Positions 1 to 34,756 of a stretch of DNA of 64,000 nt are shown here, piece after piece. A program made the translations under genes and the position numbers. The notes below the pieces were generated by a model. That model was given only the letters and a program-made list of their open reading frames with translations. It was not told where the DNA came from and made no database searches. The DNA is from a virus. Location of the stretch: the IMG/VR virus record IMGVR_UViG_3300031746_000004, positions 1 through 64,000 of that record; one strand, 5' to 3'. How positions within the stretch are numbered: position 1 is the first letter of the stretch; each line of letters opens with the position of its first letter.

Positions 1-130
1 CCAGCTCAGCGCATGCCTTACGCCGCTCAGCGCATGCCTTATCCCACTCAGCGTCTGCCTTACACCACTCAGCGTATGCCTTATCCCGCTCAGTGCATGT
101 CTTATCCCGCTCAGCCCATGTCCTACGCCA
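1..130. repeat. Six tandem 21-nt repeats
   Basis: The pentamer CTCAG recurs every 21 nt (positions 5, 26, 47, 68, 89, 110) with moderately diverged flanks. The period is a multiple of three and all copies stay in the minus-strand frame, so they encode a seven-residue protein repeat. The array may continue beyond the left edge. Confidence 0.9.
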
Positions 131-1134: not shown

Positions 1135-1161
1135 ACCCTCCTTTTCATATCTTGAATCGCT
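1135..1161. repeat. Dispersed 27-nt intergenic repeat, copy 1
   Basis: Matches 1881-1907 at 23 of 27 positions, both ending in CTTGAATCGCT. Each copy lies just downstream of a gene and contains the CCTCC complement of the next gene's ribosome binding site on the minus strand. The pair flanks the first methyltransferase gene. Confidence 0.7.
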
Positions 1162-1877
1162 TAAAGTAAATTCTCACTTGTTTGATTTATCCTTATTTCT
1201 GCGATTTTAAAGTATTCTGGTGATATTTCTATGCCGATGAAGTTTCTGCCGAGTTCTTTACAAGCTACTCCAGTTGTTCCTGAACCCATAAAGGGGTCTA
1301 AAACTAAATAGTTTATTTCTGTAACAGCATTTAGTACCTTTGTTACTAATTCAATAGGATATGGAGCAGGATGTTCTTTCATTGGTTTTGGAGATATTTC
1401 CCATACCTCCGAATAACTAAAACACTTGGGATTAAAATGTGGTGTCTTTCGCTCTTTAGTAATCCAAAACAGATATTCTGTGCAAGGCAAAAATCTTATT
1501 GGTTCTAACATTGGACTATTCTTTCTGTTCCAAACTATCATTTGCCTAACATTAAATTCTTCTAACCATCTATGCGGAAATATAACTTTATGTTCCCTTA
1601 TCTGTTGCTTGTGATTATAAAACATACTTCCACTTGTTTTCAAAACTCGCATACATTCTCTAATAACCTGTTTCTGCCATTCCTCATATTTGTCTTGAGG
1701 CATATTGTCATCATACACATCATATTTTATTCTGCCTTTAGACCAAGTTACCTGTTTAGTATTATTCTGCTGTTTGGAGCATTTATTATACGGGGGAGAA
1801 GTAATCACCAAGTCCACGCTATTATCTGGTATCGTCTTCATCACTTCCAAGCAATCACCCAACCTTAAATCTATCAT
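1161..1877 (-). CDS. DNA methyltransferase, beta class (TSPPY motif)
   Basis: This 238-residue protein is an S-adenosylmethionine-dependent DNA amino-methyltransferase. Motif IV TSPPYNKC is at about residue 27, and the AdoMet-binding motif DPFMGSGTTG lies near residue 195, after motif IV, which is the beta-class order. TSPPY is seen in N4-cytosine and some N6-adenine enzymes, so the target base is not certain. The N-terminus MIDLRLGDCLEVMKTIPD is identical to that of the second methyltransferase 960 nt away. There is no restriction gene nearby, so protection of phage DNA is the likely role. Full length. Confidence 0.92.
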   Translation of the reverse strand: MIDLRLGDCLEVMKTIPDNSVDLVITSPPYNKCSKQQNNTKQVTWSKGRIKYDVYDDNMPQDKYEEWQKQVIRECMRVLKTSGSMFYNHKQQIREHKVIFPHRWLEEFNVRQMIVWNRKNSPMLEPIRFLPCTEYLFWITKERKTPHFNPKCFSYSEVWEISPKPMKEHPAPYPIELVTKVLNAVTEINYLVLDPFMGSGTTGVACKELGRNFIGIEISPEYFKIAEIRINQTSENLL

Positions 1878-2083: not shown

Positions 2084-2839
2084 TTAAAATAAACTCTTCA
2101 TTGTGTTATTTATTCTTCTCTCGGCGATTTTAAAGTAAGTTTCGTCTTTTTCTATCAAGATACAATTGCGGTTAAGGTTTTTACAAGCCACTCCAGTCGT
2201 TCCACTACCAGCACAGTTGTCTAAAACTAAATCTCCTTCGTTGGTGTATGTCTTGATTAGATATTCAAATAGGGCTACTGGTTTTTGGGTGGGGTGGAGA
2301 CGATTTACATTATTACATTCTGCTGATATTGAACTTATATTTATAAGTGTTTTAGGGTTTCTTTTTGTATTATCTCTACTATCAGAGTGTTTCCAATTAT
2401 GGACACCGATTATACCGTCCCTGTTTTTATATTCTTTTCCAGTTGGTCTTATGTTTTTAATTTTTGCCTCTGTTATTTGTTTATTAAAAACTGTTTTGCT
2501 TTTTGAAAAAACAAGTATGTTTTCGTGAACTTTCATTGGCTGATATCCACTACACATTATATTTCCCGCCTTATCTTTATTCCACACCCACTCATACTTA
2601 AACATCTTGATATTACTCATCACCAAAGCACTGGTAAAAGGTTGGGAGGCAGTCAAAACTATCGCCCCGTTGTCTTTGATTATTCTTTTATACTGTTCCC
2701 AAAGTGGCTCAAAAGGGATAATCGTATCCCACTTACAGGCGGTTGTTCCATAAGGTAAATCACAGAGTATCATATCTATACTCTTATCAGGTATCGTCTT
2801 CATCACTTCCAAACAATCACCTAATCTTAAATCAATCAT
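2084..2839 (-). CDS. DNA methyltransferase, beta class (DLPYGTT motif)
   Basis: This 251-residue protein is a second DNA methyltransferase. Motif IV DLPYGTTACKWD at about residue 27 is the form found in a common group of phage N6-adenine methylases, and the AdoMet motif DNCAGSGTTG near residue 205 follows it. Motif I has NCAGSG where the paralogue has PFMGSG. The shared N-terminus and C-terminal FKIAE-RI with the neighbouring methyltransferase show that the two are paralogues or have exchanged ends. Likely role is protection of phage DNA from host restriction. Confidence 0.92.
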   Translation of the reverse strand: MIDLRLGDCLEVMKTIPDKSIDMILCDLPYGTTACKWDTIIPFEPLWEQYKRIIKDNGAIVLTASQPFTSALVMSNIKMFKYEWVWNKDKAGNIMCSGYQPMKVHENILVFSKSKTVFNKQITEAKIKNIRPTGKEYKNRDGIIGVHNWKHSDSRDNTKRNPKTLINISSISAECNNVNRLHPTQKPVALFEYLIKTYTNEGDLVLDNCAGSGTTGVACKNLNRNCILIEKDETYFKIAERRINNTMKSLF

Positions 2840-8737: not shown

Positions 8738-9259
8738 TTAAAATAAACTTTTTTGTTTTATTTCTTGTTTAGTTCCTGTATTTATTTCTTCAATATCAAA
8801 TCCTAATCGTTTAGCGTAATTTTTCATATTTAAAGATTTAGTTATTGTAGTTTTTACAAAAGTTTCGCTTGAATTAGACCCTGTAGTTTCTCTTCTTTTA
8901 CAACTATCTTCTAAAGTACAATAAAAATAATATAATTTTGTAGATACTTTTAATTTAGCAATAGCATCGAATACTTTAGTTTGATTTATTCTATCGCCTT
9001 CCATAATTATAGTATCGTAATTATTAATATTTTGGTTTATAAATTCTATAATTTGAGATTGAATTGTCATACTTAATACGTCCGTTCCACAACAACGTTT
9101 ATCAGAAGTGTAATCTCCTATCAAACAAATTTTATCTTGAGAAATAGTATGTTTAAACGGTTTCTCAATTAATTTTATAGGTTCTTTACAATAATTTTGT
9201 TTTACAAAAGTTGTTTTTCCTGAAGCACTTTGACCTATTATAATAATTATTTTATACAT
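8738..9259 (-). CDS. P-loop kinase, 5-hydroxymethyl-dU DNA kinase-like
   Basis: A 173-residue P-loop protein with Walker A GQSASGKT at residues 9-16, a central MEGDRI strand and a C-terminal part with RRETTG and a TKSLNMKNY helix. The MEGDR signature and its coupling to a transferase gene (13-nt overlap with 9247-10266) recall the kinases that phosphorylate 5-hydroxymethyluracil in phage DNA, the first step of thymidine hypermodification. Those reactions are known from Pseudomonas phage M6 and Salmonella phage ViI relatives. Here the role is inferred; another nucleotide kinase cannot be excluded. Confidence 0.7.
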   Translation of the reverse strand: MYKIIIIIGQSASGKTTFVKQNYCKEPIKLIEKPFKHTISQDKICLIGDYTSDKRCCGTDVLSMTIQSQIIEFINQNINNYDTIIMEGDRINQTKVFDAIAKLKVSTKLYYFYCTLEDSCKRRETTGSNSSETFVKTTITKSLNMKNYAKRLGFDIEEINTGTKQEIKQKSLF

Positions 9260-10266
9260 AAACTACCTTTTTTTGGTTCACATTTATTACATCTAATCTG
9301 ATATTTTTTAATATTAATACGAGATTGTAATTTATTATATTCAACTAAATTATCTTTATCAAAAATTTTTAATCTATTTTCTAATATAAAATTATCTATT
9401 GAAGTTATAGTATTAATTTTATATTGTTTATCTATTAATTTTAAATACATATCATCTAAATCCATATTTAAATAATAACTTCCTACTGCTATAGAATGAT
9501 AATTACATAATACTGTTTCTGTTTCGAACCAAGACATTTTGAAATCTTTTTTCCAAGGAACTTTACCCTCTACTAGCAATCCTATTTCTTCTGTCCATTC
9601 ATCTAATTTCATTGTTACAAATCTATAATTATCTTTAATCCATTTATGATTTTTTACATCTTGATTACATAATGCCAATATCGCTTCTCCTACTCCAGCT
9701 AATCGTTCTCTTACAAATAAATCTATACACCGTAAATCTATTTCGTCAGAAGTTTGAGTAATCAAATCAGAATATTTAAAAGCACTCCAAACTCCACCTA
9801 ATGGTAAATCTCTGATAGCTCGATTGATAGCTATAAATTTAGAAGCATCTTCGTCGGATTGAGTATTTTCTTCTATTATATATTTATCGAAATAATTACA
9901 TAAAGTTTTTTCTGGATATAAATATTTAATAAGTTTTTCTAATATTAAAGATAAACCTCCTGACCAATAAATTCCTCTTCTATCGCTACCTATTTTTATA
10001 TCTTTTAAATATTTATATTTCCATATTTCGTTTTTATAAGCTATTTCTAACGAAGGATAAGAAGTAAGTAATTCTAAAGTCCATGGTAAATTATAAACGT
10101 ACACATATAATAAACATCCCCATAAACGTTGTTCTTTATCGTAGTTATATTTATCGAAAAATTGTTTTAAAATAGGATATACAGGGTCTATGTCTCCGCT
10201 ATGAATAGAACAAACAGACATCGTAAAAAAATCTTTTTCTGTCATAGGATAAATTAATTTAGCCAT
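9247..10266 (-). CDS. Amino acid:DNA transferase-like protein
   Basis: This 339-residue helical protein has FIAINRAIRDLPLGGVWSAF followed by KYSDLI at about residues 144-169. That helical motif recalls the alpha-glutamyl/putrescinyl thymine pyrophosphorylase and amino acid:DNA transferase group, a glycosylase-like fold that replaces the pyrophosphate on phosphorylated hydroxymethyluracil with an amino acid or amine. A C-terminal C-x2-C and Cys (CNKC, then SLC) may bind zinc. It overlaps the P-loop kinase gene, and the PLP and radical SAM genes follow upstream. The family call is from memory of motif style and is not certain. Confidence 0.6.
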   Translation of the reverse strand: MAKLIYPMTEKDFFTMSVCSIHSGDIDPVYPILKQFFDKYNYDKEQRLWGCLLYVYVYNLPWTLELLTSYPSLEIAYKNEIWKYKYLKDIKIGSDRRGIYWSGGLSLILEKLIKYLYPEKTLCNYFDKYIIEENTQSDEDASKFIAINRAIRDLPLGGVWSAFKYSDLITQTSDEIDLRCIDLFVRERLAGVGEAILALCNQDVKNHKWIKDNYRFVTMKLDEWTEEIGLLVEGKVPWKKDFKMSWFETETVLCNYHSIAVGSYYLNMDLDDMYLKLIDKQYKINTITSIDNFILENRLKIFDKDNLVEYNKLQSRINIKKYQIRCNKCEPKKGSLCIK

Positions 10267-10399
10267 TTTTTATTATATGAGAAAGTTTCATATGTTCGCT
10301 ACTATTTTTACATAATTGGAGATTTTCGATTCTATCATCGTCTCTAATTTGATTGATATGATGAACTAATTCTTTACGACAATCTATACAACGATTCAT
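10259..10399 (-). CDS. Minimal HNH-type protein, 46 aa
   Basis: Contains CIDC, then HHINQIRDDDRIENLQL and EHMKLSH, the layout of an HNH homing-endonuclease active site reduced to its core. It sits between the transferase and PLP genes with its stop inside the next gene's start. At this length it may be a remnant rather than an active nuclease. Confidence 0.55.
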   Translation of the reverse strand: MNRCIDCRKELVHHINQIRDDDRIENLQLCKNSSEHMKLSHIIKNG

Positions 10400-10401
10400 T
10401 T

Positions 10402-11259
10402 CTAGCCACCTGCATTCCAAAATAAAACTTTATCACTTAAAATTTTTCTATTTTCTATTAACCACTTCCACGCTTTAGCATCGTATTGTAAATTACAAGG
10501 AAATTCTAAGGGATATATTGAACTTAAATCGTAATATTTCCAACCCATATCTATAAATTTTACTCTTTTTTGTTCTGTTGGAGTTAATTTAATAGGTTTT
10601 CTTTCTTGTATTAATATAGCATAAATAAAAATATTATTTATATTTTGTAAAAATCCTGTGCCTTGTAAAAGTCCTTGAAGTAATCCTCCAGTGGACATAC
10701 AAACTACAATTTCTTTAATATTAGTTAAATCTGTTTTTTTAACTTCTTGAGATATTCCTAATTTCATAAAACTTTTATCTCCGCCCAATGGAATCATATA
10801 TTGTACTTCATGACGATGTTTATACCAATGAATTTTAACCAAATATTTTCTATCATAAAAATGAATTTTAGCTCCATATTTTTCTATATCTTTTAATCTT
10901 AATTGAGATACTTCTCTAACTTCTTTAGGTAATTTTTCTATAGGTTTGCCCCAAATATGTAGTTCTAAATTTAAATATTTACAAATACTTGCTACACATT
11001 TTGCTGCTCTATAATCTCCTGCTTCTTCCCATCCTATAATAGTTAATCCTTGTTCTTTAATATTAGTTAATTCAGGAAGAAATCCTCTTGCCTTAGAAAA
11101 TCTTTCTACGTTACAACACATATCTTCTCTTTTCACAAAAATATTATATAGAGGATAATATTCTACAGGAGTATTTTCGTATAATTGAAAATTTTCGTAA
11201 GGAGTTATTACTCCTGCTTGTCTTCCGTAAGGATAGATATTTTCGACCAATCTTTCCAT
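10402..11259 (-). CDS. PLP-dependent enzyme, fold type II
   Basis: At 285 residues this resembles the tryptophan-synthase-beta/ACC-deaminase/threonine-synthase fold. VKREDM at residue 42, the likely cofactor lysine Lys56 in FSKARG, a PLGGDK loop near 158 and the phosphate-cradling STGG at 189-192 are all present. In thymidine-hypermodifying phages a PLP enzyme processes the amino acid attached to the base, so this is probably a tailoring step here. It overlaps the upstream radical SAM gene by 52 nt. The reaction is not determined by sequence. Confidence 0.75.
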   Translation of the reverse strand: MERLVENIYPYGRQAGVITPYENFQLYENTPVEYYPLYNIFVKREDMCCNVERFSKARGFLPELTNIKEQGLTIIGWEEAGDYRAAKCVASICKYLNLELHIWGKPIEKLPKEVREVSQLRLKDIEKYGAKIHFYDRKYLVKIHWYKHRHEVQYMIPLGGDKSFMKLGISQEVKKTDLTNIKEIVVCMSTGGLLQGLLQGTGFLQNINNIFIYAILIQERKPIKLTPTEQKRVKFIDMGWKYYDLSSIYPLEFPCNLQYDAKAWKWLIENRKILSDKVLFWNAGG

Positions 11260-12989
11260 TTTAATGCCTTTGCTTGTGGTAAAATAGAATTATTACAAGA
11301 TACTTTTCCTTTTTCTTCGCAATATAAACAATTACCATAGCAAGACTCTAAAGGTTCGAATCTTGACCCTCTTCTAACAAAAATAGGAACTCTTTTGCCG
11401 TGACATTGATGAGCAGTTGTAAAGGTTTCCCCTAAAGATTCTCCTGCAAGATTTATTTGTGAAGGTTTATATTCATAACATAATCCCATAGTCGCTTTAT
11501 CTTTCCAGATTGTAATAAATTTTTGATGTAATTTTTTTAACCATTCTAATCTAATTACATAATTAGTAGATATTTGATTACCTACATTTTGTCCAAATGT
11601 ATTATTAAAATATTCTAAACGTTCAGGATAATTAATAAATCTTTGTTGTAATTGTTGTTTAAAAGATTTATAATTTCCTATATCTTGTTCTACAAATTTA
11701 AAAATAAAATGTTTTACTCCTATAGATATACCTAATTCTATTAATTGTTCTAATTCTTCATAAGTTATTATGCCTGGAATTATAGGATTAACTTGCCAAC
11801 CAATATAAATTTTATCTGAAATATTTTTAATTTGAGAAAATATATCTTTTAAAGATGCTGCTCTCGGACTTAATCTTCGCCAAATTTCTTCGTTAGATGT
11901 ATTAATACTATATTGTAAATAAGAATATTTATTTTTTAGTAAATATTCTATTCCCCATTGAGGCACTATTTGTCTTGTTAAATAGAAAATAGGAAGTTGA
12001 TATTTTGTAAACACTTCGGATAAACGTTCGGTAATATGATAAATAGATTCTAAAGGATTAAAACATTCTGTAAAAGAAGAAATATAACCTATAGTAGCTG
12101 TTTTTAATTTATTTAAATCTTTATCTATTTTTTCTGGATAATAAGGGTCGACCGTTGTAGTGTGAGTTAATCTATATCCTCTCACTCCAAAATTAACGTA
12201 ACAATTATGAACTAAAATATTTTCAGCAAAAAAGTTTTCGGTGGTAGTTTGTAAATCATAAACTATTTGTTCTCCTTCTAATTTCTTAATCGATAATATT
12301 TTTACGCAATGAATAATTTCTAAATCCTCTATTTCTTTATTAAACATAGGATTATGAAGTTTCATAAAATCTCTTCTTTTAAAACGACTAGTTATATTTT
12401 GTAATTCAGTATAATCTAATAAAATATCTAATTCTATATCTAAATTATTAGCTTTGACCCAACCTCTATTTTCGGTATAAATTTTATGGTCTGAAGTAAC
12501 TTTAAGATTTTTTTTATTACTTAAAGTTATTTCTAGCAAATCTGATTTATAACCTCCCCATTTCCCTATAACTTTTGTAGGGATAGATATGTTATCCTTA
12601 AATCCCCAAATTAAATCTCCTACATTAATATCTTCTATCTTCTTAATACCTCCCGAAATTTTATTTTTACCATTTCTTATTACAGTTCTGATTGTAGTTC
12701 CTTCGCTTAAACAAAACACACAACCTACAGGACAAAATCCAGCATAAGGTCGAGTTAAAAATGCTTCTGAATAACAAGGTCGATTTCTTCTTCCTAAAGG
12801 TTCATGTTTATCTTTATACCAACCTCGTAATTGTGGAGATTTATTAGGTAATAATATATGAGGAATAGGTTTTTTATAAACTACATATTTACGAGTTTTA
12901 CCACCTTTGACTATAGCATAATTAACTTCTTCCGAAAGTCCTCTTAATTCGTTAATATTAGAAGGTTCTTTATAAGTAATATCTATCAT
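11208..12989 (-). CDS. Radical SAM enzyme (SPL-like) interrupted by an intein
   Basis: The 593-residue precursor contains a 170-residue intein (residues 93-262). The flanking exteins join to give CPVGCVFCYVNFG, a complete CX3CX2C cluster-binding motif, in a protein of about 423 residues similar to spore-photoproduct-lyase-like radical SAM enzymes. Such enzymes use a 4Fe-4S cluster and S-adenosylmethionine to start radical chemistry. A second cysteine group (CYGNCLYC) lies near the C-terminus and may bind another cluster. The ATG at 12989 follows GAAGGA by 6 nt and overlaps the upstream stop (ATGA). In the cassette it could rearrange the amino acid bound to the DNA base. Confidence 0.88.
   Translation of the reverse strand: MIDITYKEPSNINELRGLSEEVNYAIVKGGKTRKYVVYKKPIPHILLPNKSPQLRGWYKDKHEPLGRRNRPCYSEAFLTRPYAGFCPVGCVFCLSEGTTIRTVIRNGKNKISGGIKKIEDINVGDLIWGFKDNISIPTKVIGKWGGYKSDLLEITLSNKKNLKVTSDHKIYTENRGWVKANNLDIELDILLDYTELQNITSRFKRRDFMKLHNPMFNKEIEDLEIIHCVKILSIKKLEGEQIVYDLQTTTENFFAENILVHNCYVNFGVRGYRLTHTTTVDPYYPEKIDKDLNKLKTATIGYISSFTECFNPLESIYHITERLSEVFTKYQLPIFYLTRQIVPQWGIEYLLKNKYSYLQYSINTSNEEIWRRLSPRAASLKDIFSQIKNISDKIYIGWQVNPIIPGIITYEELEQLIELGISIGVKHFIFKFVEQDIGNYKSFKQQLQQRFINYPERLEYFNNTFGQNVGNQISTNYVIRLEWLKKLHQKFITIWKDKATMGLCYEYKPSQINLAGESLGETFTTAHQCHGKRVPIFVRRGSRFEPLESCYGNCLYCEEKGKVSCNNSILPQAKALKWKDWSKISILTEDKQE
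12204..12713 (-). mobile_element. Mini-intein in the radical SAM cluster motif
   Basis: The segment starts with Cys (CLSEGTTIRT, block A), has the block B motif VTSDHKIYT about 75 residues later and ends with block F/G (VYDLQ, ENFFAENILVHN) before a +1 Cys. These are the hallmarks of a class 1 intein. At 170 residues it lacks a full homing endonuclease; a stretch MKLHNPMFNKE near residue 117 looks like a NUMOD3 remnant of a lost HNH endonuclease. The intein's first Cys stands where the third cluster cysteine should be, and splicing replaces it with the +1 Cys. Confidence 0.9.
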
Positions 12990-14323
12990 AATATTCCTTC
13001 TTTTTTCCAACGAAATTCGTAAAGACGAGGAGAATATTCATAAATCAATAATCCTCTTTCGTCAACTTTTATTGGTTTTAATATTCCTTGATAATGAGAA
13101 TAAGGATTACAACCACTATTTAAATTATTCCAAGTATTTATAAACTCTCGAATATGACCTGTTTTTAATTGAGCATAATCTACTTGCCAATACTTTATAG
13201 AATCACCATAATATTTATATTCGGTAGCCCAATTATCCCACATTGTTTTTTCTATATCTTCAAATTTTAAATATTTATCTTTACCTTCACTAATCCAATA
13301 TCTTTTTCTTAATTCTTTTAAATGAAAAGTAATTTGTCCTTTACTAAAATTAGTAAGTTCTGGATTTATAGGATATTCGTCGGGGAGTCCGCAACAACAA
13401 CCTGAATAATTTAATTCTTTAAAATCAGGGTCGCTAATACTAATTCCTAATCCTAATTTTTTACAAGTTATATAAATACGTTTCATAAATATTTCTTTTA
13501 CATCTCGATTTAAACGTAAATAAGTACCTCTTTCGGTAGGAGAAAGTTTCTTATAAAAAGGTAAAATATCAAATCCTATTATATTACTTATATTTTTAAA
13601 TCTTTCTTTTAATAAAGGTGCTGCTCTTTCATCTATAGCAAAAAATTCCGTAGATATAGCTTTAGCTCCTGCTTGTTTAGCTTTAGTCAATAATTCTTCT
13701 AATCCTATATCTGTTATTCCTATAATAAAAGGTCGTAAACGTAATATAGTATAATATCCTAATTCCGACATTTTTTTAATTACCGATAATCGTTCCGAAG
13801 TAGAAGGAGTATTAGGTTCTATTTTTTTAGAAATTTCATCACTATTTGTAACTATAGAAAGTTGAAAAGCAAAATTTTTATACTTACTTCCTTCTTCAAA
13901 AATTTTCATATATTCTGGATTATCTAAAAACATCGATAAACCTTTAGTGGAAATTAAAGTGGGATAATGTAATTCTAATAAAGTTTTAATTATATCTAAT
14001 GTAATTTTATGTTTCTTTTCTATATAATCAAAACAATCTGTAAGACCTCCTATATGAAGAATAAATCGTTTAGAATAGAAATGTTGATAATAAGGATTAT
14101 CAATCTTTTTACCCATTATTAGTTCTCTAAAACTTTTAGGATTAACTAATTTTAATTCGGGTGATTTTTTACAGGCAGGATTTGTCGATGCAAATTGAGC
14201 AGCAAAACAATATTGACAACCGAAACTACATTTAGTAGTAGTATCGGCTGTTAAAGGAAGTGCACAATCAGTAAACTCTGAACTTATCCTACCAAATTTA
14301 TAATTATGTTTAAAATTTTCCAT
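12986..14323 (-). CDS. Radical SAM enzyme, second of the cassette
   Basis: A 445-residue protein with CSFGCQYC (Cys32, Cys36, Cys39), a CX3CX2C radical SAM cluster motif, then the barrel strands FILHIGGLTDCFD, LISTKG and FQLSIVTNSD typical of the SPL-like group. A CCCG cluster lies in the C-terminal third (about residue 305). It has no intein. It lies upstream of and overlaps the intein-bearing radical SAM gene, so the two are co-translated and may catalyse successive steps or act together. Substrate unknown; DNA-base tailoring is inferred from context. Confidence 0.85.
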   Translation of the reverse strand: MENFKHNYKFGRISSEFTDCALPLTADTTTKCSFGCQYCFAAQFASTNPACKKSPELKLVNPKSFRELIMGKKIDNPYYQHFYSKRFILHIGGLTDCFDYIEKKHKITLDIIKTLLELHYPTLISTKGLSMFLDNPEYMKIFEEGSKYKNFAFQLSIVTNSDEISKKIEPNTPSTSERLSVIKKMSELGYYTILRLRPFIIGITDIGLEELLTKAKQAGAKAISTEFFAIDERAAPLLKERFKNISNIIGFDILPFYKKLSPTERGTYLRLNRDVKEIFMKRIYITCKKLGLGISISDPDFKELNYSGCCCGLPDEYPINPELTNFSKGQITFHLKELRKRYWISEGKDKYLKFEDIEKTMWDNWATEYKYYGDSIKYWQVDYAQLKTGHIREFINTWNNLNSGCNPYSHYQGILKPIKVDERGLLIYEYSPRLYEFRWKKEGIL

Positions 14324-14324
14324 A

Positions 14325-14654
14325 TTATATATTTTCTAATAATTTAAATAATTCTAATATCAAACGAATATCCTTAATTTGTTTAGTATGAGGATTAAAT
14401 ATTAAGTATTTACCTAATAATTTTAAATCTTCTTCACTATCTACAAAAATTTCTATTTTATAACGTAATCCTTCTTCATTTTTAGCTAAAAGAGAAATTT
14501 TTTCTAATTTTTCGGGAGTAAGTACCCAAGATGCCTTATAAGTTGCTATATTTTCTGGAATACCTTCTTTTTCAAATTTATTTTTTAATTCGTTATATAC
14601 TTCCCATTTATTTCCCAAAGCTGTCTTAATATCTAAATAATCTGTTAATTTCAT
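14325..14654 (-). CDS. Hypothetical protein between cassette and clamp loader
   Basis: 109 residues with a helical N-terminal half (KTALGNKWEVYNELKNKFEK) and a beta-alpha C-terminal half (YKIEIFVDSEEDLKLLGKYL). No motif recognised. It overlaps the clamp-loader small-subunit gene by 4 nt (ATGA) and lies 2 nt from the radical SAM gene. Confidence 0.6.
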   Translation of the reverse strand: MKLTDYLDIKTALGNKWEVYNELKNKFEKEGIPENIATYKASWVLTPEKLEKISLLAKNEEGLRYKIEIFVDSEEDLKLLGKYLIFNPHTKQIKDIRLILELFKLLENI

Positions 14655-15022
14655 AATCCTAACTCCATTTTTAATTTTTCTTTGTCTAATAATTTATCTA
14701 TAAAAGGTTTAGTTAATTCTACTTCTCTTTTATTCCATTTCATTAATTTAATTAATTCTTCGGTAACTATATCTGTTGTTTCTGTAATTTTTTCAATCTT
14801 TTTAAAATAAGGTACTTTTCCTTGAGGAATGGTATAATATAAATTATAATATAAATGTAACGGATTAACGATAAATAAATAATTTAAAATATTACTCACT
14901 ATATCTTGTAACTTTTTATCTTGAGCAAGATAATATAAAATTATAACTAATTCTTCGGCAGTCGTAGTTTCTGGTAATTTATTCTTTAAATATAATGTAT
15001 TAATTAATTTAAAGTCAAACAT
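14651..15022 (-). CDS. Clamp loader small subunit (gp62-like)
   Basis: A 123-residue helical protein next to the clamp loader ATPase. The segment LYYNLYYTIPQGKVPYFKKI matches in layout the T4 gp62 region around FNYLMAAVPRGK, and the position between ATPase and downstream replication genes is as in T4-like phages. In T4 one gp62 joins four gp44 subunits to load the sliding clamp. It is shorter than T4 gp62 (187 residues). The call depends on this short match plus synteny. Confidence 0.65.
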   Translation of the reverse strand: MFDFKLINTLYLKNKLPETTTAEELVIILYYLAQDKKLQDIVSNILNYLFIVNPLHLYYNLYYTIPQGKVPYFKKIEKITETTDIVTEELIKLMKWNKREVELTKPFIDKLLDKEKLKMELGL

Positions 15023-15915
15023 TGTTTTATTCTTTCTAAATTACTTAATATTACCATTTTCTCTTTTACATTGAAATTTATTAATTTTTCCATTTGACAA
15101 AGTATTTCGCATAATTTACCTACTTTAGAAAAAGATAATTTACTGTTAGTTATATAAATAAAAAGATAATCTATAAATTCTTTTATATTTATTTCGTCGC
15201 TCATTATTTTTACTTTAGCATTATCATAATCTCCAGAAGATATTAATTTTAATAAATTTTCATTTTTACCCCTTTGGTCTAATAATTCTACAGGAATACC
15301 TTGTTTAATACTTTGAAGATGTAAAACCATTCTTCTTATATCAGGATAATATTTATTGATTATATAATCTATATTATCTATTTTTACTTCTTCTATTTTA
15401 ATTATTTGTAATAAATAATTTTTAATTTGGTCTTTAGGCGGTAAATTAAAATTAATATTTACACATCTACTAACTAAAGGTTCTATAATTTTTTCTATAT
15501 GATTTGCTGTTAAAATAAAAAAAGCATTATTAATAGTTTCTTCCATTAAATTTCTTAAAGAATTTTGTGCTTGCGAAGTCAATCCGTCTGCTTCGTCCAA
15601 TATTACTGCTTTCTTCACCCCTATCTTTAAAGATTTATTTTTAGTAAAATTACTAACTTGTTCTCTAATTATATCTATTCCTCTATCTGAAGAAGCATTT
15701 AATGTTAATATATCGCTACCTAATAAATGACAAAGTAGATAAGCTGTAGATGTTTTCCCTGTTCCTGCAGAAGAAGAATATAATAATAGATGAGGAATTT
15801 TTTCAGGTTCTTTAGATATTTGAGTTAAAAAAGTTTTGTATTTATCGTCTATTACTAAAGATTCTAAAATCTTTGGACGATATTTCTCAATCCATACAAT
15901 ATTTTTTGTATCCAT
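15004..15915 (-). CDS. Sliding clamp loader ATPase (gp44/RFC-small-like)
   Basis: 303 residues. It opens with WIEKYRPK, then Walker A SSAGTGKT (about residues 48-55), Walker B VILDEADG, sensor 1 FILTANH and the SRC arginine finger LVSRC, the full set for an RFC small-subunit/T4 gp44 AAA+ clamp loader. It opens the ring clamp at primer-template junctions using ATP. It overlaps the gp62-like gene and lies 2 nt from the clamp gene, giving a compact clamp-loader operon. Confidence 0.93.
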   Translation of the reverse strand: MDTKNIVWIEKYRPKILESLVIDDKYKTFLTQISKEPEKIPHLLLYSSSAGTGKTSTAYLLCHLLGSDILTLNASSDRGIDIIREQVSNFTKNKSLKIGVKKAVILDEADGLTSQAQNSLRNLMEETINNAFFILTANHIEKIIEPLVSRCVNINFNLPPKDQIKNYLLQIIKIEEVKIDNIDYIINKYYPDIRRMVLHLQSIKQGIPVELLDQRGKNENLLKLISSGDYDNAKVKIMSDEINIKEFIDYLFIYITNSKLSFSKVGKLCEILCQMEKLINFNVKEKMVILSNLERIKQCLTLN

Positions 15916-26959: not shown

Positions 26960-28048
<1,089 letters not shown>

Positions 28049-28870: not shown

Positions 28871-29812
28871 TTAAATTAATTTTAATGCTTCTTCGTATGC
28901 TTTCCTTTTCATAGTTGCTCCACTACCAAATAATATAGAATTTACTCTATTATTTCCTCTTGTTGTTTTATAATGGTCGGCAAATTCTGTAAAAGCATTA
29001 TATCCAGCCCATAATGTATTTTTTATTCCTTCTTCATTATTGCCTTTGCCATTTATAAATAAAGAAGAAAGTCTATCTATATTATTTTCTAAATTCGTGC
29101 TTTTCTCTGTATTTTCAGTTATATTTAATATTCTAAAAGCATATTGGTCAAAACCTTGTCTTGTCATAGAAGTATTAACAAATTTTTGAGTAATTATTTC
29201 AAAATCTTTATAAAAATCTAATGCTAATCCCAATAATCTTTTTGCTTCTTCAGTTTTAGCATTTATATTTCCAACGTGATTGATACTAATTCCTTCGTTT
29301 TGGTCTTTATAAGAAGCAATGAGAGTGTTTTGACATACTACTCTGATTGGAGTAAAATACATTTTAACAGCACTTTTTCCATCGTGTGAATTAGTAAATA
29401 ATAAATATTTTTCTACAACATCGTTTCTAAATACTAATAAATTTTTAGGCAATTTTGCTAATATCCAAATTTTTTCTCCATTACCTAAAGCACCTGCTGA
29501 ATGATAAAATGCTTCTTTTGATTTCACTATTCCATCAAAAAATTCAAACGCTTTTATATTTTGCACTATTTTATATCTATCGGCAACTACTCCTAAAATT
29601 TTATTATTAGATGTATTTAACGTTCCAAATACTTCAGCATCTATTTTTTGATTATTTTGTTCCGCAAATAAAGGCACTTTAATAACTTCATAATCTAATC
29701 CTGATAATTTTATTGCTTCTTCAGAAGTAACTTCTTCATTAATTCTAATCCCTACATCGTGCCACGCTTTGCCTACACAAAACATTCTATTTTCATAAAT
29801 ATTATGAGCCAT
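28871..29812 (-). CDS. DUF932-family phage/plasmid protein
   Basis: 313 residues with the family features: an N-terminal AWHDVG, a central NNKILGVVADRYKIVQN, then KYLLFTNSHDGKSAVKMYFT and PIRVVCQNTL. This phage/plasmid-like family (TIGR03299 type) has no firm biochemical role but is often encoded near replication or accessory genes. Length fits the family. It overlaps the following upstream gene by 11 nt. Confidence 0.88.
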   Translation of the reverse strand: MAHNIYENRMFCVGKAWHDVGIRINEEVTSEEAIKLSGLDYEVIKVPLFAEQNNQKIDAEVFGTLNTSNNKILGVVADRYKIVQNIKAFEFFDGIVKSKEAFYHSAGALGNGEKIWILAKLPKNLLVFRNDVVEKYLLFTNSHDGKSAVKMYFTPIRVVCQNTLIASYKDQNEGISINHVGNINAKTEEAKRLLGLALDFYKDFEIITQKFVNTSMTRQGFDQYAFRILNITENTEKSTNLENNIDRLSSLFINGKGNNEEGIKNTLWAGYNAFTEFADHYKTTRGNNRVNSILFGSGATMKRKAYEEALKLI

Positions 29813-32235: not shown

Positions 32236-32430
32236 TCACTTTTTTTTAAGTTTATCGCAAGCAAGTTTATAATATCTCCGCCACCGCAATCTTTCAATTG
32301 CCATAGTTTTATCCTCAATCATTTGCCAAACAATTTTCTTGCCATATGAATTGATATAACCTTTGAGCAATAAAACTATAAACTTGATTGCCAATTTTCT
32401 TTGTTTTAGAGTCAGCCTGATATGTTTCAT
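32236..32430 (-). CDS. Small very basic protein, 64 aa
   Basis: Highly basic helical peptide (RLTLKQRKLAIKFIVLLLKG, ERLRWRRYYKLACDKLKKK). Overlaps the GATase gene by 1 nt. Possibly nucleic-acid binding; no family recognised. Confidence 0.45.
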   Translation of the reverse strand: MKHIRLTLKQRKLAIKFIVLLLKGYINSYGKKIVWQMIEDKTMAIERLRWRRYYKLACDKLKKK

Positions 32431-33254
32431 TATTCACACCACCTGTCAATGTATAATTCCCTACAATCTTTACAACAGTTTATCATCCAATCATTATAAT
32501 ACTTTGTGTCTTTTTTATTCGACATACATAATTCGCAAAACTTTTTGCTATGCTTTGTAATTCTACCAAGTTTGTCCTGCTCTTTATAATCATCTACAAT
32601 ATCGTGCCACTTGTAATTATTGTATGAATTTGTATTGTTGTAAGCATCGAAGGGCACAGTATTATATATCATCCTTGTTTTAAAACCTTCATTGGAATAG
32701 TAGCATTCATCTGTGTGCTTAATAAATTTGCCAAATAATAAAATGTCAGATTCAATATCATTTGTCATTATAGCAAGTTTGTCTCCATTCAAAAACTTTG
32801 TAATCAATTTTTGTATAGTTTTATTTTTAAGATTGTTTTTTATTTTTGACGATGCCAATATGTCTATAATAAATTTTTGCGTGTCTGATAATTTTCTGTG
32901 CTGTCCATAGGGTAGAATTCCGTTATGAGCAACTGCAAACCTTGTCTTCAAATCCAAACATCTTAAAAGTTTTATGTTCCTTGTTATAGGGAACGGATGT
33001 CGATTGCCTTTGTCTATTAGTCCGTGTGTAGCAAGCCTGAAGTGTATAATCAGTTTGTCTTGTTTTTTAATAGTATCATTCAACCAGTTATAAAACTTTT
33101 TGAAATTGTTGAAATCTTTGCGAATGTAAACTGTTTGTATTCCTTGCTTTTTGTATGCTACTCCAACACCATCAGAATTATTTTTGTAGCATATTTCCAA
33201 AGTGCTTTTATTCGGGATGTCTACATTTTCAGGCTTAACTACTATCATACACAT
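32430..33254 (-). CDS. Class II glutamine amidotransferase-like protein
   Basis: 274 residues. After removal of Met the chain begins with Cys2 (MCMIVV), the N-terminal nucleophile of class II glutaminases. NSDGVGVAY at about 26-34, HFRLATHG at about 72-79, NRHPFPI and AVAHNGIL complete the usual glutaminase set. A C-terminal zinc ribbon (CELC, CCKDC) follows. These domains release ammonia from glutamine. The next gene upstream, only 2 nt away, is an amidoligase that would use the ammonia or an amine, so they form a two-component unit. Confidence 0.8.
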   Translation of the reverse strand: MCMIVVKPENVDIPNKSTLEICYKNNSDGVGVAYKKQGIQTVYIRKDFNNFKKFYNWLNDTIKKQDKLIIHFRLATHGLIDKGNRHPFPITRNIKLLRCLDLKTRFAVAHNGILPYGQHRKLSDTQKFIIDILASSKIKNNLKNKTIQKLITKFLNGDKLAIMTNDIESDILLFGKFIKHTDECYYSNEGFKTRMIYNTVPFDAYNNTNSYNNYKWHDIVDDYKEQDKLGRITKHSKKFCELCMSNKKDTKYYNDWMINCCKDCRELYIDRWCE

Positions 33255-33256
33255 AT

Positions 33257-34756
33257 TTATTCACCTCTGTTTTGTAATACGGCACTTGCCATCTTTGCTG
33301 GGCTCATAATTCCTTGTGACTTTGTAATGCTTGTCAAGTGCATTCTACGTTTGATTAAAAATTTATACAAACATTTGTATCTGTTATTTATTTTCACATA
33401 ATCTATAAAATTACTCCAAGACTTTCCATTGAAGAAAATTATTGAAGTGCTTTGTTTTATAAAATCAATCACAGCAAGAATAAAATTTAATGAATTCATA
33501 AAACTTTCATAATTCAGAGTGCCCCTAAAAATTCTGAATTCAATTGTCTTGCTTGTCTCATTTACAGCAACGTATCTTGATTCATTTGGTTCCGCTGTCT
33601 TTGATAATATATTTTGGAAAGTATAATTTTCAATGCGTGCATAATGTGATAATGCATCTTCAGACTTTCTGCGTGAAATTTTTAAAATTTTATTTTTATT
33701 TAATGAAAAGAATGTTTTAAGTTTTATTATATCTGATTCATCAAAATGCTTTTTTGAAATATGAAAATGCAATCCACACAAATCATTATCGTGCGATGTG
33801 TATTTATTTTCTTTTAAATAAGTCAGCAAATCTTTTATCCTCAAATCTTTAAAACATAGTTTTGTTGTAGGATGACTCACTATCTCAAAACCTCTGCCGT
33901 TCAAACTGCCATCTTCTTTTAAATAATATCTGTCTTGAATTTTAAGTTTATTCAATTCATCTGTTAACTCCGATGCGTGCTCTTTTAAATTTTCTTCACA
34001 TAAAACTTCAAGTTCAAATCCTATATACAAAGCATTGTGTTCATAATCTTTTTTTACAAATTCAGGGTCAGGCTTGTATTCATATCCGCGCAAAATTCTA
34101 TCTCTATCATCATAACAAGACTCACAAACATATTCATCGGAGTCATCATTATACCTTAAATCATCTATCCAAACTATTTCATTACAACTGGCACAAGTGC
34201 CGCAATGATTATTAAAGCAATCTTCACAATAGAGTGTATCACTTGGGCTGTGATATGATTCATCCACAGAAAATGTATTGTTGCAATTGTCACAAACAAA
34301 ATATAATCTGTCAAAGCAAGATTGACAATAGACTTCACCATTTGGGCTGGACAACCTATCATCAATCAAAACTTCATTTTCACAACTGGCACAAGATATA
34401 TAATTTTCATTGTGCCATTCTTCATAGCAATCCTCACATAAAAATTTATTGTCTGCCCTGCGTGTCGCTTCAATAGAAAATTTATGACATTCATAACAAA
34501 AACTTTGACTCAATTTTATTGTAGTATGAATTGAAGTTAAGTCATCAACTACTTTTATCACTTCAATTTTATCATTTAAAATTCTGCCAAACAAGTTAAT
34601 CCCGTAAGTCTCATTCCATATCTTTGCTTGCGATAAACTTGTATTATAATTTAAAAGCAATCCAAATTGCTTGCCATTCCTATTTTCTAAAATAATAAGT
34701 TTGTCTGGAATTTTTAATACTACAGTATGTCTTTTAAATAATGTTAACATAATCAA
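33257..34756 (-). CDS. Amidoligase with LIM-like zinc fingers
   Basis: 499 residues. After an N-terminal region (about 1-85), four consecutive LIM-like fingers (CYEC, CEDC; CASC, CQSC; CDNC, CEDC; CASC, CESC) span about 87-220. The C-terminal half has YIGFELEVLCE, KEDGSLNGRGFEIVSHPTT, CGLHFHISKKHF and TIEFRIFRGTLNYESF, the motifs of the glutamine-synthetase-like amidoligase (COOH-NH2 ligase) family. Such enzymes form amide or isopeptide bonds using ATP. The first codon is TTG at 34756 with AAGGA 6 nt upstream; ATG at 34750 is the alternative. The zinc fingers may select a protein substrate. Confidence 0.85.
   Translation of the reverse strand: MIMLTLFKRHTVVLKIPDKLIILENRNGKQFGLLLNYNTSLSQAKIWNETYGINLFGRILNDKIEVIKVVDDLTSIHTTIKLSQSFCYECHKFSIEATRRADNKFLCEDCYEEWHNENYISCASCENEVLIDDRLSSPNGEVYCQSCFDRLYFVCDNCNNTFSVDESYHSPSDTLYCEDCFNNHCGTCASCNEIVWIDDLRYNDDSDEYVCESCYDDRDRILRGYEYKPDPEFVKKDYEHNALYIGFELEVLCEENLKEHASELTDELNKLKIQDRYYLKEDGSLNGRGFEIVSHPTTKLCFKDLRIKDLLTYLKENKYTSHDNDLCGLHFHISKKHFDESDIIKLKTFFSLNKNKILKISRRKSEDALSHYARIENYTFQNILSKTAEPNESRYVAVNETSKTIEFRIFRGTLNYESFMNSLNFILAVIDFIKQSTSIIFFNGKSWSNFIDYVKINNRYKCLYKFLIKRRMHLTSITKSQGIMSPAKMASAVLQNRGE

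Follow-up and report, generated by a model that had tools for sequence, protein, structure and literature searches.

The cassette and its genomic setting

The window analyzed here, a stretch of 64,000 nucleotides, covers positions 1-64000 of a virus record of 105,284 bp with a G+C content of ~27%. The ends of the record share an exact 127-bp overlap within an array of imperfect 21-bp tandem repeats that spans them (window 1-120 and genome 105060-105284); the assembly is therefore very likely circular and its gene content near complete. Other phage genes encode a family-B DNA polymerase, a T4-type clamp loader, a Prim-Pol, and RuvB- and RecA-like proteins. Two N6/N4 DNA methyltransferases lie near the record start (window 1161-1877 and 2084-2839, minus strand), and the same strand carries a collagen-repeat protein (window 26960-28048), a DUF932 protein (window 28871-29812), and an Amidoligase_2 protein beside a protein that weakly resembles class-II glutamine amidotransferases (window 32430-34756).

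The first-pass annotation had placed five overlapping genes between 8738 and 14323 and read them as a candidate thymidine hypermodification cassette. We confirmed all five genes on the minus strand, but not the overlap of all of them, as a 135-bp gap separates the PLP enzyme and ADDT. Along the minus strand the order is small protein, rSAM2, rSAM1, PLP enzyme, ADDT, and kinase, and the features are as follows.

8738-9259, minus strand: kinase; P-loop protein, predicted 5-hydroxymethyl-dU DNA kinase (Ploopntkinase3-like), from HMM, phrog_800, and motifs
9247-10266, minus strand: ADDT; amino acid:DNA transferase (formerly aGPT-Pplase2), from PF18724, a local HMM, and invariant motifs
10402-11259, minus strand: PLP-dependent fold-type II enzyme, homologue of M6 gp052, from phrog_7093 and sequence identity
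11208-12989, minus strand: rSAM1; radical SAM enzyme, homologue of M6 gp053, interrupted by an intein, from phrog_9252 and sequence identity
12204-12713, minus strand: mini-intein of 170 aa inside rSAM1, from PF14890 and junction residues
12986-14323, minus strand: rSAM2; radical SAM enzyme, predicted O2-independent thymine-methyl hydroxylase, from a 64-member family, context, and predicted fold
14325-14654, minus strand: small protein directly upstream of rSAM2, with weak phmmer matches; putative member of the cassette
15004-15915, minus strand: T4-type clamp-loader large subunit, outside the cassette (phrog_168, E = 1.7e-56); also found near rSAM2 in locus L176

Homology to the M6 cassette

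Four of the five genes are homologues of the cassette of Pseudomonas phage M6, and on this homology the proposed hypermodification cassette is well supported as one of the M6 type. The rSAM1, PLP enzyme, ADDT, and kinase genes are the clear best matches in the genome to HMMs of known cassettes (E = 2.7e-92, 8.8e-23, 1.7e-16, and 3.9e-14, respectively). The kinase HMM, built from the cassette kinases of Montesquieu and MO526, reached 1.5e-26 on iteration, so that the P-loop kinase proposed earlier is indeed a cassette-kinase homologue. It carries the motifs GxxxSGKTT, GTDxLS, and EGDR and belongs to the subfamily found in TET and rSAM2 cassettes, not to HMUDK_HMUD1; it also matches phrog_800 (E = 5e-12), a family annotated, like M6 gp054, as 'terminase small subunit'. 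For ADDT, the match to PF18724 (E = 5e-5) is under the curated cut-off, the local HMM reached 5e-30 on iteration, and the motifs DPxY, RR, and ETxLC...S...G.Y...D are invariant and common to M6 gp051 and MO526. HMMs and motifs agree in relating this product to the AADT fold, so the reading was not refuted on this point, one of two that the first-pass annotation had named.

The PLP enzyme matches phrog_7093 (E = 1.8e-21), is 32% identical to M6 gp052, and retains the lysine of the FSKxRG motif. From its fold type II, as opposed to an obvious decarboxylase, it had been deduced that the final base may be new. We rejected this deduction because the same fold-II family occurs in M6, whose DNA contains 5-(2-aminoethyl)-dU (PMC6449724), and in about 60 other phages, with the same rSAM family next to it in those that are annotated.

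The rSAM1 protein is an M6-type enzyme (phrog_9252, E = 2.9e-84). Its start codon is the ATG at 12989, in an ATGA overlap with the rSAM2 stop, and not the TTG at 13010. With the intein removed, it is 41% identical to M6 gp053, with the CxxxCxxC motif and the C-terminal cysteines invariant. The intein (PF14890, E = 7e-13, over the cut-off; no homing endonuclease domain matched in its 170 aa by Pfam) directly precedes the third [4Fe-4S] cysteine of CxxxCxxC, with the junction signatures CLSEGTT...TSDH...VHN/C. The spliced protein reads CPVGCVFCYVNFG, as in M6, with a motif region (CPVGCVFCYVN) close to that of M6. The rSAM2 relative L018 is likewise interrupted by an intein at this point (CSFGCIY/C...VHN/CFSQ), and NCBIfam includes an intein-containing Rv2578c radical SAM model, which suggests that the third-cysteine site in radical SAM proteins may be a recurrent one. 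Two more inteins, both with LAGLIDADG homing endonuclease domains, lie on the minus strand in an amidoligase-like protein, the second amidoligase of the record (genome 72816-74480), and in a terminase-large-subunit-like protein (genome 92388-95018).

In M6 and its relatives, the rSAM, PLP, ADDT, and kinase families cluster as gp051 to gp055. The M6 rSAM is said to be an isomerase and the PLP enzyme a decarboxylase, as Lee et al. reportedly described in 2022. The wider M6 cassette (gp051-gp058; also in SN1, Yua, Bordetella CN2, and Pseudanabaena Pam3) shares with the present locus ADDT, the fold-II PLP enzyme, rSAM, the kinase, and a compact operon. In contrast, M6 has a TS-type dUMP hydroxymethylase, HMUDK_hel (aGPT-Pplase1), and Nmad5, all absent here, and lacks the intein and rSAM2, both present here. 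M6-like SN1 has a hydroxymethylase, Nmad5, aGPT-Pplase1, kinase, rSAM, PLP enzyme, and aGPT-Pplase2 (PMC9476957).

Search for a hydroxymethylase

Because the kinase acts on a hydroxymethyl group, a source of that group is needed. The absence of a hydroxymethylase from the window, stated earlier, is correct and extends to the whole 105-kb record, in which neither a TS-superfamily hydroxymethylase (PF00303; no significant match to a local TS HMM) nor a TET/JBP protein (Tet_JBP, PF12851) was found. Local HMMs detected no HMUDK_hel or Nmad5 in the record, and a Pfam scan of most of the larger proteins in the non-structural regions gave no other hydroxylase candidate. The expectation that the hydroxylase lies elsewhere in the genome was thus not borne out by the genome-wide TS-type search; instead, rSAM2 appears to replace it. 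No C5-cytosine methyltransferase was found in the record, and no full ParB-like partner or recognized SAM synthetase in the window.

rSAM2 belongs to a separate radical SAM family

The rSAM2 protein scores 32.5 bits against PF04055 (Radical_SAM; cut-off 29.5). It lies next to rSAM1 and is distantly related to it (an rSAM1-type HMM finds rSAM2 at 4e-10). The radical SAM step described earlier as doubled does comprise two genes, but not a duplication: rSAM2 represents a separate family. Its nearest NCBIfam models are the PA0069/Rv2578c radical SAM proteins (NF033668, NF038135, and NF038136; one version contains an intein), with E = 5e-22 and a score far under the curated cut-offs (78 vs 360 bits). 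Among 64 aligned members, the invariant cysteines are C20, the CxxxCxxC cysteines C32, C36, and C39, and C310 and C311, and most members have one more cysteine shortly before C310; C20, C310, C311, and this neighboring cysteine are compatible with one auxiliary cluster.

The structure model computed from the 64 sequences (pLDDT 89.9, pTM 0.91) superseded an earlier, poor model from 4 sequences (pLDDT 60). The six top-ranked PDB structures for it are, without exception, spore photoproduct lyase (Foldseek E = 1.9e-6, TMt 0.60), a radical SAM enzyme that works on thymine in DNA and the closest solved fold. Unlike the lyase, rSAM2 is larger, has the extra invariant C20, C310, and C311, lies in a phage operon, and is only ~13% identical; against the lyase model TIGR04070 it scores 12.1 bits (cut-off 400) and is not a member by sequence.

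Scanning viral contigs with the rSAM2 or ADDT sequence alone gave no matches, and alignments were required. Scans baited with rSAM2 yielded 138 stretches of viral sequence and 25 loci in genomes; the 104 loci in which rSAM2 was strong reduced to 75 clusters at 90% identity, taken as non-redundant phage and prophage loci. A representative member had no match among 50,697 GenBank phages. Named loci come from Clostridia, Bacteroidaceae, Prevotella, Selenomonas, Victivallales, Oscillospiraceae, and similar lineages, which we take to be anaerobic, and some are prophages beside terminase genes in cultured strains (S. ruminantium S137 and B. fragilis S82). TET relatives in GenBank phages belong instead to those of Mycobacterium, Microbacterium, Arthrobacter, Gordonia, Rhodococcus, and cyanobacteria, all aerobic hosts. 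The papers searched in full text contained no earlier report of the family; it may be mentioned in Lee 2018, Lee 2022, or Iyer 2013.

rSAM2 and the known hydroxylases occur in different loci

The flanks of the 75 non-redundant rSAM2 loci contain no TET, TS, or HMUDK_hel, and whole-record Pfam searches of rSAM2 contigs found TS in 0/43 and TET in 0/43, with TET detected in 7/7 positive controls. Among kinase-bearing loci, TS or TET occurs in 0/34 with rSAM2 vs 103/120 kinase+ADDT loci without it; the corresponding Fisher p of 9e-22 is descriptive, because the rSAM2-positive and rSAM2-negative sets were drawn with different baits, and the contigs are often fragments. When viral contigs were scanned with rSAM1 as bait, 69 kinase+ADDT loci divided into 40 with TS, 4 with TET, 4 with rSAM2, and 21 with none, free of overlaps; an ADDT-baited scan gave 71 with TET, 1 with TS, and 3 with none. 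Cassettes of ADDT, PLP enzyme, rSAM1, and kinase exist either with TET (L027 and L028) or with rSAM2 (L018, L021, L023/L248, and L231).

The actinobacterial TET/JBP-kinase-ADDT cassettes (Tonitrus, MO526, Kozie, and Gordonia and Mycobacterium phages) share the kinase subfamily and ADDT with the present locus. Like rSAM2 cassettes, they have a ParB-like partner, and hydroxylation would take place on polymerized DNA in both. They differ in using a 2-oxoglutarate/O2-dependent TET/JBP enzyme, in aerobic hosts, where rSAM2 is found here. The ParB-like partner is present in 67/75 rSAM2 loci and 67/79 TET loci vs 0/43 TS loci, a distribution that groups rSAM2 with TET, an enzyme working on polymerized DNA. 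The small protein upstream of rSAM2 gave phmmer matches to the gene at the same position in L176 and to the L178 gene for the ParB-like protein (E = 1e-7 and 8e-7; 21 and 18 bits; weak, in a set of 5 sequences), and may be a distant relative of the C-terminal portion of this partner.

Partners of rSAM2

Most rSAM2 loci have neither rSAM1 nor the PLP enzyme. A kinase, with or without ADDT, is present in 34 of the 75 loci and the TET-associated glycosyltransferase (TAGT; PF20691) in 26, while no kinase, ADDT, or TAGT was recognized in 15 of the 75. Kinase and TAGT, both of which act on a hydroxymethyl acceptor in known systems, almost never occur together in rSAM2 loci (one exception, L281, is outside the 75). 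Traced along the rSAM2 tree, the kinase/ADDT label switches 14 times, with at least 12 of these switches required by supported branches, and the TAGT label switches 17 times; with such repeated swaps, a single rSAM2 first step appears to feed interchangeable downstream steps. A GNAT acetyltransferase regularly lies beside the kinase and rSAM2 (L209, L256, L261, L264, and others) and is likely a further tailoring step.

TAGT and ParB-like partners were rejected as stand-alone markers of hydroxymethylation: 67 TAGT loci (L292-L358) lack both TET and rSAM2, and a ParB-like gene accompanies 63 of these; the two partners alone are therefore not diagnostic. Such TAGT and ParB-like pairs, free of TET, TS, and rSAM2, possibly represent a further modification system.

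A SAM synthetase lies nearby in 13/75 rSAM2 loci vs 0/156 others, the pattern to be expected from stoichiometric use of SAM. C5-cytosine methyltransferases occur in only 3/44 rSAM2 records, a rarity that makes thymine the likely methyl substrate and, with none encoded here, disfavors 5-methylcytosine.

Proposed pathway and alternatives

We consider it probable that rSAM2 makes the 5-hydroxymethyl group on thymine in DNA without O2, in place of TET/JBP, and that the kinase, ADDT, rSAM1, and the PLP enzyme convert the product into an M6-like base. The genomic context for rSAM2 as the hydroxylase is strong; its chemistry is predicted from that context and the modeled fold. A 5'-deoxyadenosyl radical would take a hydrogen from the thymine 5-methyl in DNA, the methyl radical would be oxidized, perhaps via an auxiliary Fe-S cluster held by C20, C310, C311, and the one neighboring cysteine, and water addition would give 5-hydroxymethyl-dU, performing the function of TET/JBP by unrelated chemistry. 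We know of no close precedent for a radical SAM enzyme that hydroxylates an unactivated methyl with oxygen from water; the oxidations carried out by anaerobic sulfatase-maturating enzymes come nearest. The lack of a full ParB-like partner and a recognized SAM synthetase in the window also counts against this reading, as do the 15 rSAM2 loci with no recognized kinase, ADDT, or TAGT. For the steps from kinase to PLP enzyme, we infer from homology to M6 that the kinase would phosphorylate the hydroxymethyl, ADDT would swap the phosphate for an amino acid (glycine by analogy), rSAM1, active only once its intein is spliced out, would convert the N-linked adduct to a C-linked form, and the PLP enzyme would decarboxylate it. 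By the same analogy, the final base would be 5-(2-aminoethyl)-dU or a close relative.

The proximity and distant kinship of the two radical SAM genes would also fit a standard M6-like cassette in which rSAM2 tailors the base after amino-acid attachment and hmdU comes from the host or from an unrecognized phage gene, many phage genes being of no recognized function. A tailoring enzyme would still need TS or TET, however, which were never found with rSAM2, and rSAM2 occurs in kinase-only and glycosyltransferase-only loci, mostly in the company of neither rSAM1 nor PLP enzyme; we regard this explanation as unlikely. Radical SAM chemistry is diverse, and a thymine methyl radical, plausible for a fold like that of spore photoproduct lyase, might be resolved otherwise, for example as 5-formyl-dU or by direct coupling, with the kinase or transferase family using that product. 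Against this stands the recurrence with rSAM2 of kinase, ADDT, and TAGT alike, families known to act on hydroxymethyl pyrimidines or on compounds derived from them in M6, ViI, T6, and TET phages, and an alternative product seems to us rather improbable. Relatives of rSAM2 are annotated 'DNA repair photolyase', in keeping with its nearest fold, but in 75 non-redundant loci rSAM2 is tightly and repeatedly linked with kinase, ADDT, TAGT, and ParB-like genes and excludes TET and TS, which makes it very improbable that a photolyase-like repair enzyme lies in the modification operon by chance.

TET/JBP oxygenases need O2, so the route by which phages of strict anaerobes could oxidize bases in DNA has been unclear, and the rSAM2 family is a candidate answer. 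Extending the predicted hydroxylase role to the whole family, we lean, with somewhat better than even confidence, toward a widespread, undescribed radical SAM family of O2-independent thymine-methyl hydroxylases, the anaerobic counterpart of TET/JBP, that starts many amino-acid and sugar hypermodifications in phages of anaerobic bacteria. The idea is open to direct test in cultured Selenomonas ruminantium S137, which has a prophage with the family, and, if correct, might offer an enzyme tool for labeling thymine under anaerobic conditions. It would also establish a radical route to 5-hydroxymethyluracil and give phages of the gut and rumen a new entry to DNA hypermodification.
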